DNA of 64,000 nucleotides from Bacillota bacterium (GTDB taxonomy: Bacteria > Bacillota_E > JAJZYS01 > JAJYTV01). The stretch covers positions 1 to 64,000 of the forward strand of contig JAJZVM010000010.1 of the NCBI GenBank assembly GCA_021845645.1, given 5' to 3'. Positions 538 to 4,249 of this stretch are shown piece by piece. The first letter of the stretch is position 1; each line of letters starts with the position of its first letter. The notes under the pieces were generated by a model. It was not told where the DNA came from. It did not search any database and was given only the letters and a program-made list of their open reading frames with translations. Made by a program: the position numbers and the translations under genes.

Positions 538-1308
538 TCAGACCACCGAGAAGCCACCGTCGGACGTGATCACCTGGCCCGTGATCCATGCGGAGGCGTC
601 GCTCGCCAGGAATCCCACCAGGCGCGCGGCATCTTCCGGCCGCCCGAGCCGCCCGCCCGGGCAGCGCTCGCACACCGCCGCCTGCGTCCCATCGTCCATC
701 CAGAGCGTGTCCGTCGGGCCCGGGTCGACCGCATTGACCGTGATGCCGAGCGGCGCGAGTTCGACGGCGAGGTAGCGCGTCATGGCGCTCAGAGCGCCCT
801 TGCTCAGGCCGTAGGCCAGGTTGCCGGCCTCGCCGCTGCGGTCCGGACCGGATACCAGGCTGATGATGCGCCCTGGGCCAAGGTCCGCGCAGCGCCGCGC
901 GAACTCCGCCGATAACAGCGCCGCGCCTCGCGCGTTGACCCTGAGGTGGGCGTCGAGCAGCGCCTCCGTCAGGTCGCGAAAGCTTGAAGGCGCCCAATGG
1001 GCCGCATTGTTGACCAGGATCGACGGCGGCCCTAGCGCCGTGCCGGCCCTGTCGAGCAGCCGCGCCGCTGCGCCTTCGGACCCGAGATCGAGCGGCATGG
1101 ACGCGACGGGCCCGAGCTGCCGAATCTCCTCCTCGAGTGCGGCAGGGCCGCCGCCCGCCGCAAAGCCCGTGGCCGCGTCGAACGGCTGCCAGTGCGTGAA
1201 GAAGATGCTCGCGCCCCGGCCCGCAAGTTCTCTGCATATGGCGGCGCCGATGCCTGACTCTCGGCTTGCGCCGGTCACGACGGCGACGCGTCCGGCCAGA
1301 TCCCGCAT
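538..1308 (-). CDS. SDR family oxidoreductase
   Basis: A 256-residue short-chain dehydrogenase/reductase. It has the N-terminal dinucleotide-binding motif GASRESGIG (residues 13-21), the LVNNAAHW segment in the middle, and the catalytic Y-x3-K in AYGLSKGALS near residue 172. The C-terminal ITGQVITSDGGFSVV is typical of the FabG-like classical SDRs. The start ATG at 1308 has a GGAGGGA ribosome site 6 bases upstream. It is the last gene of a minus-strand run with the ABC exporter (41-base gap), so it may be co-transcribed with it. The substrate is unknown; the role in an exporter operon could be modification of the exported compound, which is only an inference. Confidence 0.85.
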   Translation of the reverse strand: MRDLAGRVAVVTGASRESGIGAAICRELAGRGASIFFTHWQPFDAATGFAAGGGPAALEEEIRQLGPVASMPLDLGSEGAAARLLDRAGTALGPPSILVNNAAHWAPSSFRDLTEALLDAHLRVNARGAALLSAEFARRCADLGPGRIISLVSGPDRSGEAGNLAYGLSKGALSAMTRYLAVELAPLGITVNAVDPGPTDTLWMDDGTQAAVCERCPGGRLGRPEDAARLVGFLASDASAWITGQVITSDGGFSVV

Positions 1309-1349: not shown

Positions 1350-2159
1350 TCACCCGTTTCGCTTGAGCTTGCCGGTGCGCAGAGCGTAGCGCTCCGCGAT
1401 GTGGAAGGCCCAGAGCCCGATCGGCACGAGGACGAGGCCCGCCGCCAGCAGGCCGAGCACCGTCGACAGCAGCGCGCCCGGCGCCGTGCCCTGCAGCACG
1501 GCGGCGCGCACCGCCGTCAGCGTGTAGGTGGCGGGGGAGAACCACGCCAGCGTCTGCAGCCAGTGCGGCAGCACCGAGATGGGGTAGTAGATGCCGGAGA
1601 CGAGGAGCAGCACCCCCTGGATCACCTGTGTCGCCTGGGCGCCGCGCTCGGCCGACAGCATCGGCATGATCGCGCCGAGGAGGCCGAGGCCGATGAAGGG
1701 CAGCGAAGCGGCCGCGAGCACCAGGAGCGCGCCGGCGATGTCGGCCTGGCCGAGCGGAAGGTGGAACAGCAGGAAGATGCCGAGCAGCACCACGAGTGTG
1801 CGGGCAAGGCCGTACACCACCGCGTAGGCGCAGACGCCGAGCAGGTAGGTGATCCGGCGCACGGGAGCCATGAAGCTGTACTCGATGGTGCCTTCCCAGC
1901 GCTCCCACATCACCGAGTTCGAGATCTCGAAGAACAGCACGGAAAGGAAGTTCCAGAGAAGGGCGCCGATCGCCAGGTACAGGACGCGCTCGCCCTGTCC
2001 GGGTCCTGGCTCCGCCAGGCCGATGAGCGCGATCGTCAAGGCGTTCACGGCGTTGTAGAAGGCGAAGACCACTTCCCAGCCCATGTAGCGTCGGATCAGG
2101 CTGAAGTTGCGAGAGATGACGGCGCCCATGGCGCGTCCCTCGCTGCGCAGGGAGATCAA
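1350..2159 (-). CDS. ABC-2 type exporter permease
   Basis: A 269-residue membrane protein with about six hydrophobic segments and the pattern of ABC-2 drug/polysaccharide exporter permeases (YWSVMWERWEGT-like cytoplasmic loop near residue 85, LLVSGIYYPISVLP loop near residue 190). It would form the transmembrane half of the exporter with the ATPase gene next to it. The TTG start overlaps the ATPase stop codon (TTGA) and has AGGAGG about 10 bases upstream. An ATG ten codons downstream (2129) with GAGGG 7 bases upstream is an alternative start. The close coupling indicates co-translation with the ATPase. Substrate not determined. Confidence 0.85.
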   Translation of the reverse strand: MISLRSEGRAMGAVISRNFSLIRRYMGWEVVFAFYNAVNALTIALIGLAEPGPGQGERVLYLAIGALLWNFLSVLFFEISNSVMWERWEGTIEYSFMAPVRRITYLLGVCAYAVVYGLARTLVVLLGIFLLFHLPLGQADIAGALLVLAAASLPFIGLGLLGAIMPMLSAERGAQATQVIQGVLLLVSGIYYPISVLPHWLQTLAWFSPATYTLTAVRAAVLQGTAPGALLSTVLGLLAAGLVLVPIGLWAFHIAERYALRTGKLKRNG

Positions 2160-2953
2160 GCGTCCTGTTCCTCCTCTTCGTTCGGGTCCTCGCCGGTGAG
2201 GGCGAGGAAGGCGCCTTCGAGTCCCTGTCCGCCGCCGTGGCGGGACGCGAGCTCATCAGGCGTGTCGAGGGCGATGAAGCGGCCGTCGCGCAACACGGCC
2301 ACGCGGTCGCAGAGGCGCTGGGCCTCCTGCATGTCATGGGTGCAGAGCACGATCGAAGCCTGGAAGTCGCGGCGGATCTCCTCTACGAACGCCTGCACGT
2401 CGCGCCGCGAGCGCGGGTCGAGCCCCGTCGTGGGCTCGTCGAGCAGGAGCAGGGTGGGGGAGGTGAGAAGGGCGCGCGCGATCGCCACCTTCTGCTGCTG
2501 TCCGCGCGACATCTCCTCGAGCGGCGCACGGTACTTCGCCTTCGGAAGTCCGAGCCGGTCCAGGATCTCCTGGGCGCGCCGCCGCGCGGCACCGCGCTCC
2601 AGACCGTAGAGCCCCGCGGCGTAGTCGAGGTTCTCCTGTGCCGAGAGCTTCTTGAAGAAGGACGCCTCCACCGAGACGCGGTGGATCAGGCGGCGCACCT
2701 CTTGCGGCGCCGTCTCCACGTCGGTGCCGAACACCCGCAGGCTGCCGCGGTCCGGCAGCAGCAGGGTGCAGATGAGACGGATCAGGGTGCTCTTGCCGGA
2801 CCCGTTGGGACCAAGGATGCCGAAGCACTCGCCTTGCGGCATCGCGAAGCTGATGCCCTGAAGCGCCGCAACCTTGGGCTTCCTGCGCCGTAGCGGGGAC
2901 TCGCCTTCTGGCCGGAAGGACTTCCAGATGTCGACGCAATCGATCGCGAGCAT
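2156..2953 (-). CDS. ABC exporter ATP-binding protein
   Basis: A 265-residue ABC ATPase. Walker A GPNGSGKST (near residue 48), the signature SRGQQQK (near residue 150), Walker B LLLLDEPTTGLD and the H-loop LCTHDM are all intact. The arrangement is that of DRA/CcmA-type ATPases that drive ABC-2 exporters. An ATG start at 2953 has AAAGGAGG upstream. The tail is acidic (EDPNEEEEQDA). The gene lies behind a promoter, a short leader reading frame and a terminator (2986-3176), so transcription is probably attenuated. That arrangement is known for antibiotic-inducible ABC genes, which suggests but does not prove a resistance role. Confidence 0.9.
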   Translation of the reverse strand: MLAIDCVDIWKSFRPEGESPLRRRKPKVAALQGISFAMPQGECFGILGPNGSGKSTLIRLICTLLLPDRGSLRVFGTDVETAPQEVRRLIHRVSVEASFFKKLSAQENLDYAAGLYGLERGAARRRAQEILDRLGLPKAKYRAPLEEMSRGQQQKVAIARALLTSPTLLLLDEPTTGLDPRSRRDVQAFVEEIRRDFQASIVLCTHDMQEAQRLCDRVAVLRDGRFIALDTPDELASRHGGGQGLEGAFLALTGEDPNEEEEQDA

Positions 2954-2985: not shown

Positions 2986-3024
2986 AAAAAGGGCCCGGCC
3001 GGTCATCGCCTGACCGGCCGGGCC
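2986..3024 (-). terminator. Rho-independent terminator / attenuator ahead of the ABC exporter
   Basis: On the minus strand a perfect 14-bp GC-rich stem (3011-3024 with 2992-3005) closes a 5-base loop and is followed by C and five T residues (2986-2990). It lies between the leader peptide and the ATPase start, where a full terminator would block expression unless relieved. A competing pairing is possible between 3083-3091 (inside the leader reading frame) and 3009-3017 (5' arm plus loop), with nine pairs including two G-U. Confidence 0.8.
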
Positions 3025-3037
3025 GCGCGCATGTCCC

Positions 3038-3115
3038 TCAGCGCGGCATATGGCCAGACCAAGCGCAGGACAGGGCGACCCCCCGACCAGGGGCGACCGT
3101 GATCGTCCAGCGCAT
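3038..3115 (-). CDS. 25-codon leader peptide upstream of ABC exporter
   Basis: A short frame starting at ATG 3115, beginning MRWTITVAPG and ending SGHMPR before TGA. It follows a GGGGG ribosome site 8-9 bases upstream and lies about 30 bases downstream of the -10 element. It ends 14 bases before the terminator stem. Size and position match leader peptides of ribosome-mediated attenuators. I recognise no known stalling motif. An ATG two codons-lengths upstream (3120) in another frame reads through the terminator and is less likely. Confidence 0.55.
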   Translation of the reverse strand: MRWTITVAPGRGVALSCAWSGHMPR

Positions 3116-3146
3116 GGCATAACCCCCTTCGATGCACGTGTCGCGA

Positions 3147-3176
3147 AGTATAGCACCGCTTGCATCGTCCTGCCAA
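3147..3176 (-). promoter_or_regulatory. sigma-A promoter of the ABC exporter operon
   Basis: On the minus strand TTGGCA (3171-3176) and TATACT (3147-3152) are separated by 18 bases, each one mismatch from consensus. It drives the leader peptide, attenuator and exporter genes. Confidence 0.75.
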
Positions 3177-3204
3177 GAGGCGGATGAGGATCCCGTGCCA
3201 GGAC

Positions 3205-3247
3205 TCCCTCACGCTCGGCTCAGAGTCGTCCCTTACGCTGATGCTCA
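3205..3247. repeat. pair of direct repeats, possible operator
   Basis: TCCCTCACGCT at 3205 and TCCCTTACGCT at 3229 match at 10 of 11 positions with a 24-base period, and each is followed by CTCA. They lie between the divergent exporter promoter and the secreted-protein gene at 3277. The spacing suits a dimeric regulator bound twice on one DNA face; the regulator is unknown. Confidence 0.4.
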
Positions 3248-3276
3248 ATCCTGAGTGTCCTAGGAGGGATGAGAGG

Positions 3277-3795
3277 TTGACCGTCCGCGCAGCGCACCTT
3301 GGGGCTCTTGCCGTCGTCCTAGCATCGGGAGCATTGCTCCTGCTCCACGGCGCCTCCGCCAAGACCGTGCCGGGAGTGGCGCTCGCCACGGCGCCCGGGC
3401 CTCATGCCACTGCGCCGGCCGCGCCGAGGCAGGCCGGCCACACCACGCAGGCGAGCGCACCTGCCGCCGCGACCAAGCCGAGCCACGGTCCCCTCCTGAG
3501 CTCGAGCCAGATCGCACCCTTCACGTACGAGGTGTATCCGACGCCGACGGCGCAGCTGAGCCAAGCGGAATCCGGATTCCAGATCGCCGTGCACCAGGTC
3601 TCGCCTTCCGAGCAAAAGGTCGTGATCACGAACCAGCTCGGCGGCGTGACCGCACTGCAGCAGAACTTCCTCGCCAGCGACCGCGCCTACTGGATCGAGA
3701 CGAGCTATGGCGACGACGCCCCAGGCCAGGATGCGAACCTCGGCGACGACGGCTTCGTCCTGACCGACGCCCAGGGTTATATCACGCAGAAGTGA
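3277..3795 (+). CDS. secreted or membrane-anchored protein of unknown function
   Basis: A 172-residue protein I do not recognise. A hydrophobic stretch near the N-terminus (ALAVVLASGALLLLHGASA) looks like a signal peptide or anchor. A long Ala/Pro/Thr/His-rich linker follows to about residue 75, then a compact C-terminal region with YEVYPTPTAQ and GDDGFVLTDAQGY. The TTG start at 3277 is chosen because AGGAGGG lies 8 bases upstream, and earlier in-frame ATGs lack such a site. The gene ends 13 bases before the DoxX-like gene and is probably co-transcribed with it. The cargo domain is likely extracytoplasmic. Confidence 0.65.
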   Translation: MTVRAAHLGALAVVLASGALLLLHGASAKTVPGVALATAPGPHATAPAAPRQAGHTTQASAPAAATKPSHGPLLSSSQIAPFTYEVYPTPTAQLSQAESGFQIAVHQVSPSEQKVVITNQLGGVTALQQNFLASDRAYWIETSYGDDAPGQDANLGDDGFVLTDAQGYITQK

Positions 3796-3808: not shown

Positions 3809-4249
3809 ATGATGGATCGCGTGGCTCCCTGGCGTGCCCTCGTCGGCCGGCTCGCCCTCGCAGGCGTCATACTGTACTTCGGCGCCGGCGAACTCTGGAG
3901 TCCCCAGCAGTGGGTCGGCTACATCCCGACGCCGCTCCACGTCCTGCCCGCCATTCCGCTTCTGCTCGTCCACGGCTACGTGCTCTTCGCGGTAGGCGGC
4001 CTGTTGCTCCTCGGCGCCTGGACAAAGCCCATGAGCTGGCTGAGCGTCGCGCTGCTCCTCTCGATCGTGCTGGGTTTGATGGTGAACGGCGGCGGAACGT
4101 CGCTCTACGTGCGCGATCTCGGCCTCACGGGCCTCGCGCTTACGCTCGCCCTGGAGCCCATGCCCGGTTACGGCCTTGACACGCTCTTCGCCCACGAACC
4201 GAAGCCTCGCCAGGCGACCCGGCCGGCGTTGCAGAGGACGGGGCGCTAG
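3809..4249 (+). CDS. DoxX-like membrane protein
   Basis: A 146-residue protein with four predicted transmembrane helices (about residues 10-28, 45-68, 72-92 and 98-115). The arrangement resembles the DoxX/DoxD family, including the short RDLGLTGLAL stretch in the last helix. The C-terminus is basic and cytoplasmic or external. It follows the secreted protein gene at 3277 by 13 bases. The upstream ribosome site is weak (GAGGTTGG), and ATG 3812 is an equally good start. Function in this family is usually unknown; some members act in quinone-linked sulfur or respiratory chemistry, which cannot be shown here. Confidence 0.6.
   Translation: MMDRVAPWRALVGRLALAGVILYFGAGELWSPQQWVGYIPTPLHVLPAIPLLLVHGYVLFAVGGLLLLGAWTKPMSWLSVALLLSIVLGLMVNGGGTSLYVRDLGLTGLALTLALEPMPGYGLDTLFAHEPKPRQATRPALQRTGR

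Follow-up and report, generated by a model that had tools for sequence, protein, structure and literature searches.

A probable ribosome-mediated transcription attenuator ahead of an ABC-2 type exporter operon in Bacillota

The exporter operon and its leader region

The window, as the term is used here, is the whole stretch of Bacillota DNA that was analysed, 64,000 nucleotides in length. An ABC exporter operon lies on its minus strand behind a short leader region. The features are listed below in the direction of transcription; pairings between the numbered regions are predicted.

3147..3176, minus strand: sigma-A-type promoter, TTGGCA / TATACT, 18-nt spacer, 10/12 matches, TG ahead of the -10
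3129-3123, minus strand: Shine-Dalgarno sequence (SD) of the leader, AAGGGGG
3110..3124, minus strand: region 1, the end of the leader SD and the start codon; predicted to pair with region 2 (helix P1, putative anti-antiterminator)
3038..3115, minus strand: leader ORF, ATG...TGA, 25 codons plus TGA, peptide MRWTITVAPGRGVALSCAWSGHMPR
3041..3066, minus strand: region 2, the last leader codons (last eight); 3066-3052 predicted to pair with region 1, 3065-3041 with region 3
3007..3028, minus strand: region 3, the pre-stem bases, the terminator 5' arm and most of the terminator loop; putative antiterminator partner of region 2
2986..3024, minus strand: intrinsic terminator, 14-bp stem (3024-2992) with 12 G-C pairs, followed by C and T5
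2156..2953, minus strand: ABC ATPase, DrrA-like, below the DrrA cut-off
1350..2159, minus strand: ABC-2 type permease, matches ABC2_membrane
538..1308, minus strand: SDR oxidoreductase, lineage-specific third gene

A first-pass annotation of this DNA had claimed a sigma-A promoter, a 25-codon leader frame with its own ribosome site, a 14-bp terminator stem with T5 and an ABC ATPase gene behind it; all of these are present. As in attenuators of the vmlR and bmrB kind, a leader ORF with its own SD lies between the promoter and the gene, and an intrinsic terminator, conserved in an alignment of ten sequences, precedes the gene. In the window this terminator begins 13 nt past the leader stop.

The individual parts differ in how far they stand out from chance. 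A promoter of the type described is found once in the stretch scanned, against 0.2 expected in shuffles, and its TTGGCA is the same in 10/10 aligned relatives. A terminator-like site alone is at chance level: one was found in that stretch, where 1.1 were expected. Folding of the leader RNA is 3.0 sd better than that of its shuffles, none of which (0/200) is equally good. The nearest probable genes, at 3160-3795 and 3809-4249, are oriented opposite to the leader and the ATPase; consequently, the terminator does not sit where an upstream gene would end.

The ATPase scores 234.3 bits against the DrrA model TIGR01188, for which the curated cut-off is 312.45. We take the window exporter and the bmrCD exporter to belong to different subfamilies. 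The exporter and the SDR had been proposed as one unit; the SDR does follow the permease in the window, but this arrangement is lineage-specific, being shared by 4 of 54 related loci (L002, L004, L005 and L009); some of the 54 end too near the permease to judge. In seven of the 54 (L010, L013, L014, L015, L018, L020 and L023), a drug-efflux-like MFS gene follows the permease; it begins 65-76 bases past the permease, at the place of the window's SDR. Two of these MFS genes were scanned and are closest to DHA2-type and other drug-efflux models, under the curated cut-offs. Together with the gene matches, these neighbours favour, and do not prove, a drug-export role for the operon.

Conservation of leader and terminator

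The 54 loci were obtained by a permease scan and are labelled as Bacillota, Sulfobacillus among them, or as members of more remote phyla; at class level, the permease is found at 1e-50 in 52/154 genomes. An ATPase match is present in 53 of the loci (a poor one in L046) and there is none in L050; these two were excluded ahead of counting for want of a good ATPase match. Addition of L064, L065 and 14 further regions to the 54-locus set resulted in 69 non-redundant upstreams, window included.

A leader ORF and a terminator are found in 55 of the 69 upstreams when a loose rule is applied, which requires an SD match of 5 or more and a terminator 0-45 nt past the stop. The strict rule demands an SD match of 7 or more, a leader of 15-40 codons, a gap of 8-25 nt and a terminator of -15 kcal/mol or lower; 37/69 upstreams satisfy it, window included, versus 1/258 controls, which are the upstreams of other ORFs in L001-L054. 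The lone control match is the L004 element itself, reached via an internal ATPase start. Under the same strict rule, no second such element was found on either strand of the whole 64 kb. Conservation of the leader frame and terminator at orthologous loci had been set as the check on ribosome-mediated transcription attenuation ahead of the exporter; the conserved frame and terminator support that proposal.

There is no leader pick in 14 of the 69 upstreams, even under the loose rule. Four of these (L017, L049, L054 and L099) were left in this group although a leader is visible by eye, and the upstream of another, L015, is just 129 bases long. From the 55 automatic picks, 47 were retained for further tests: six picks judged doubtful were taken out manually (L038, L045, L047, L051, L089 and L095), while L032 and L040 were dropped as they fall below the SD threshold. 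Grouped by peptide similarity, the 47 leaders form 26 clusters. In 38 of them the stop codon lies 11-20 nt ahead of the called stem; this is approximately the distance from a stop codon to the leading edge of a ribosome sitting on it.

The alignment of ten leaders shows no variation in the -35 hexamer, in CCATG or in a block TGG..TG.CC close to the end of the leader, and the greater part of both the SD and the terminator is invariant as well; indels inside the leader measure 3 and 6 bases. A covariance model of this alignment finds one strong copy each in 9 of the 15 genomes of the order, and these nine are also the source of the model's own sequences; all strong copies sit ahead of the exporter operon. 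The other matches, among the 150 candidates scored per genome, are weak (E of at least 9e-6), and several cover the terminator alone.

Competing RNA pairings and the leader peptide

In P1, region 2 (3066-3052) pairs with the SD and start region (3124-3110). RNAalifold, applied unguided to the ten leaders, returns P1 as a long helix together with the terminator, and 12 of 41 pairs have two-sided changes. Across the ten-sequence alignment, 88.8% of P1 cells are paired and 12 cells are changed on both sides; the covariation score is 0.294 versus a shuffled mean of 0.153, with 0/500 shuffles equal to it and slid versions reaching at most 0.154. In the six closest sequences alone, 88.5% are paired and the covariation is not above shuffles. 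In 26/47 leaders, P1 outperforms 95% or more of the cross-cluster swaps; L092, for example, has the eleven-pair helix AGGTCGTTGAA/TTCAACGACCT. Swaps as good as the native pairing number 2/46 in L034 (labelled Coatesbacteria), and 6/45 and 25/45 in L042 and L036, respectively (both labelled Stahlbacteria). For the window on its own, P1 is not significant (8/40 swaps equally good).

When the RNA is folded with a ribosome placed halfway along the leader and before synthesis of the terminator's 3' arm, the window and L001-L005 have one helix in common, 3065-3041 with 3028-3007, which holds the stop codon in its loop. Pairing extends to 96.6% of cells, and three pairs have two-sided changes; covariation is as high in 6/500 shuffles, and slid versions are at most 40.3% paired. 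At one position of the terminator arm, the window and L003 have C, whereas L001, L002, L004 and L005 have U. This base is matched within the terminator in 6/6 sequences (by G or A) and within the antiterminator in 5/6 (as G-C, G-U or A-U), the match being broken in L003. In the window and L001-L005, there is thus a predicted antiterminator which overlaps the terminator 5' arm. L006-L008 use the same regions in a shifted register, while L009 has a different pairing.

Over the 26 clusters, the antiterminator gain relative to dinucleotide shuffles has a mean z of -1.62 (Stouffer -8.2); z is below -1 in 15 clusters and 11 fall short. The gain is strongest in L097, L042, L100, L016 and L035 and absent in some others, such as L013, L026 and L093, where z is positive. 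In the Coatesbacteria- and Stahlbacteria-labelled loci, z is -2.70 (L034), -5.26 (L042) and -1.22 (L036). The window alone has a z of -1.37, which is not significant (13/100 shuffles equally good). Simple duplex prediction between the leader and the terminator arm gives a less clear picture than this fold-based shuffle test: 13/47 and 12/47 leaders are at or below 10% in two swap controls, in which the window has 9/40 and 4/40. Since the window's pairings are non-significant by themselves, the case for both pairings rests on comparison.

The first-pass annotation had put forward a different competing pairing, in which 3083-3091 joins 3009-3017 through nine pairs, two of them G-U. It exists in the window and, when extended, forms a strong duplex in the window RNA, but it is not conserved in relatives: 41/90 cells pair in the ten-sequence alignment, or 32/81 without the window, which is about the level of slid control structures (27-42%). 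It was therefore rejected as a conserved antiterminator and is superseded by 3065-3041/3028-3007.

The strong conserved structure, with P1 spanning the leader start, might also be expected of a ligand- or protein-binding RNA switch which does not need translation of the leader. This is very unlikely, as the SD, the start, the stop position and a multiple-of-three length of leader indels have all been kept. In addition, no Rfam 15 family reaches its gathering score in the leader region; nine matches are obtained at E up to 5, every one below its gathering score. Similarly, the short, fast-changing frame adjoins an exporter and could in principle encode a small exported peptide (a bacteriocin or signal), the partial terminator setting gene dosage; we consider this very unlikely too, given that both ends of the frame are engaged in competing, covarying RNA helices.

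In the window's clade, pN/pS for seven leaders is 0.96 over codons 2-16 and 0.94 over codons 17-25, against 0.15 for the ATPase in six of the same loci. Seven other small clusters have leader values from 0.26 to 2.06, five of them at 0.45-0.82. The value of about 0.95 in the window's clade suggests that the switch probably reads ribosome position rather than an arrest peptide. In an arrest-peptide sensor of the ermC or msrD type, a drug-bound nascent leader peptide arrests the ribosome at one codon; unlike the window element, the msrD leader reportedly relies on such drug-specific stalling on the leader peptide, and its gene is of the ABC-F type. Within the close clade, leaders have retained their length and a Trp located seven codons ahead of the stop, and some distant clusters share the leader ends GSPP, LTPP and RPR and have pN/pS below 1, down to 0.26, as such a sensor might require. 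However, the shared ends, TGG codon included, are the pairing strand of P1, and with the pN/pS of the window's clade this makes a sensor of that type an unlikely explanation. By clade, sequence comparison makes a conserved arrest peptide unlikely in that of the window and excludes it less clearly in the other clusters. GSPP and RPR had also been considered as proline stalling motifs; this was set aside because these ends are the P1 pairing strand.

If P1 acts as proposed, pairing between the leader's end and its start would explain the conserved-looking ends (GSPP, RPR, AWSG) without strong selection on the peptide. In that case, conserved leader codons would not have to imply an arrest peptide.

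GSPPxx leader ends recur in clusters of low overall leader similarity (L013, L018, L023, L020 and others). The GSPPxx codons are complementary to the leader's own SD.

Two of the 25 codons in the window leader are for Trp, which recalls amino-acid attenuators of the trp or his type, where a shortage of charged tRNA is sensed. Such a function is hardly credible here: there is no run of one codon, leaders in most other clusters are without Trp, and the genes encode an exporter and form no biosynthetic operon. A codon run before biosynthetic or uptake genes, as in trp, his and ilv attenuators, is not found at this locus.

Proposed switch and known attenuators

Taken together, the element is probably a ribosome-mediated transcription attenuator with three competing RNA pairings. 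Its parts, their conservation and the alternative pairings predicted for them are established by comparison; from these we infer the action of the parts in the cell and the direction of the response. Region 2 would pair either with region 1, as anti-antiterminator, or with region 3, as antiterminator; otherwise region 3 would join the terminator 3' arm. A freely moving ribosome would proceed to the stop codon and cover region 2, leaving the terminator arm free; with region 2 masked in this way, transcription would end. If instead the ribosome were delayed on or close to the leader's start codon, it would cover region 1, region 2 could then pair with region 3, and RNA polymerase would enter the exporter genes. 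Slowing might come, for example, from a translation inhibitor that affects initiation or the first steps of elongation; the inducers would presumably be ribosome-slowing drugs, and might include the exporter's substrate, as the first-pass annotation had suggested.

In simulations with the window RNA, the terminator arm is sequestered to 0.84-0.85 with the ribosome at codons 1-12, to 0.64 at codon 15, 0.21 at codon 18 and 0.01 at codon 24, which suggests that a ribosome near the start should give readthrough and one near the stop termination. In the growing free window transcript, P1 is at 0.62 when the stop codon is reached; when the transcript reaches the terminator loop, the antiterminator is at 0.85 and P1 at 0.00, and later P1 returns to 0.56 together with the terminator at 0.91. 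The ten-sequence alignment points to an anti-antiterminator which overlaps the antiterminator; at equilibrium, free window RNA favours the antiterminator for as long as the 3' arm is missing, and the outcome for an untranslated RNA would depend on kinetics. Because region 1 is the initiation site, stalling very near the leader start would be the best trigger. The peptide is unconserved in the window's clade; consequently, the signal is most likely the slowing of the ribosome itself.

Several known systems resemble this arrangement; the comparisons below draw on excerpts of the papers cited. In Bacillus subtilis, vmlR likewise has a leader ORF, an anti-antiterminator, an antiterminator and an intrinsic terminator; it is induced by start-stalling drugs, and two altered leader peptides work at least as well while a third works less well (PMC9226507). 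In contrast to the roughly 25 codons here, the vmlR ORF has three; its SD is in a single-stranded stretch ahead of the first stem, whereas here the SD and start are inside the predicted anti-antiterminator, and its gene encodes an ABC-F ribosome protector rather than an ABC-2 type exporter (PMC9226507). The bmrB-bmrCD system, also from B. subtilis, shares leader-ORF ribosome-mediated transcription attenuation of an ABC multidrug exporter, and terminator, antiterminator and anti-antiterminator are all present; its terminator is within a 53-codon leader, whereas here it is 13 nt past the stop of a 25-codon leader (PMC4191407). Relative to vmlR and bmrB, the distinguishing features of the window element in sequence comparisons are a predicted anti-antiterminator that surrounds the ORF and involves the leader's SD and start codon, and a peptide that is nearly free to vary in the clade.

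In Escherichia coli, the toiL-topAI leader ORF is read via several ribosome-targeting drug classes with stalling at different codons; it acts via the main gene's ribosome site and Rho and does not use an intrinsic terminator (PMC12121999). The msrD leader also controls an ABC-type gene and is induced by a ribosome-binding drug (PMC10314930). A survey of premature terminators describes ABC-leaders, in which such terminators stand before ABC transporter genes, those of a multidrug export operon in Lactobacillus among them; Sulfobacillus is absent from its main text, and its excerpts describe no leader ORF or start-site pairing for exporters (PMC2965389). Sulfobacillus is likewise unmentioned in the excerpts of PMC11109978. 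Literature matches for Sulfobacillus with leader peptide concern, in the excerpts given, Tat secretion and Bacillus pumilus genome mining. No description of the window element is found among the literature matches listed, in which subscription journals are thinly covered. The kind of control is known; its conserved, largely peptide-independent form appears to be new.

A broader reading, plausible if still tentative, is that the element is a peptide-blind sensor of ribosome position, kept before one exporter family in Bacillota and in Coatesbacteria- and Stahlbacteria-labelled loci despite turnover of leader and terminator sequence. The last eight leader codons would be contested by the initiation site and the terminator arm, and the RNA would report that a ribosome is stuck, be it at initiation or within the first codons, regardless of the cause. 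On this reading, one attenuator design would have been retained widely on an exporter family that belongs to mostly uncultured bacteria. It would also suggest that the host bacteria encounter translation inhibitors, and the element could serve as a reporter for identifying which ones are met.

A search of the divergent promoter region for repeats of at least 12 bases found no family; two near-copies of TCCCTYACGCT, below this length limit, can be seen by eye at 3205-3215 and 3229-3239 on the plus strand. Both copies are also found in L001, L002 and L005 and are altered in L003 and L004; they are a possible candidate operator. On the minus strand, an ECF-type sigma factor (approximately 6255-5754) is followed by a probable anti-sigma factor (5764-4259), both recognised by eye. 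The plus-strand frame at 3809-4249, which adjoins that of the unassigned 3160-3795 protein, has a borderline DoxX match (23.5 bits; cut-off 23.6).
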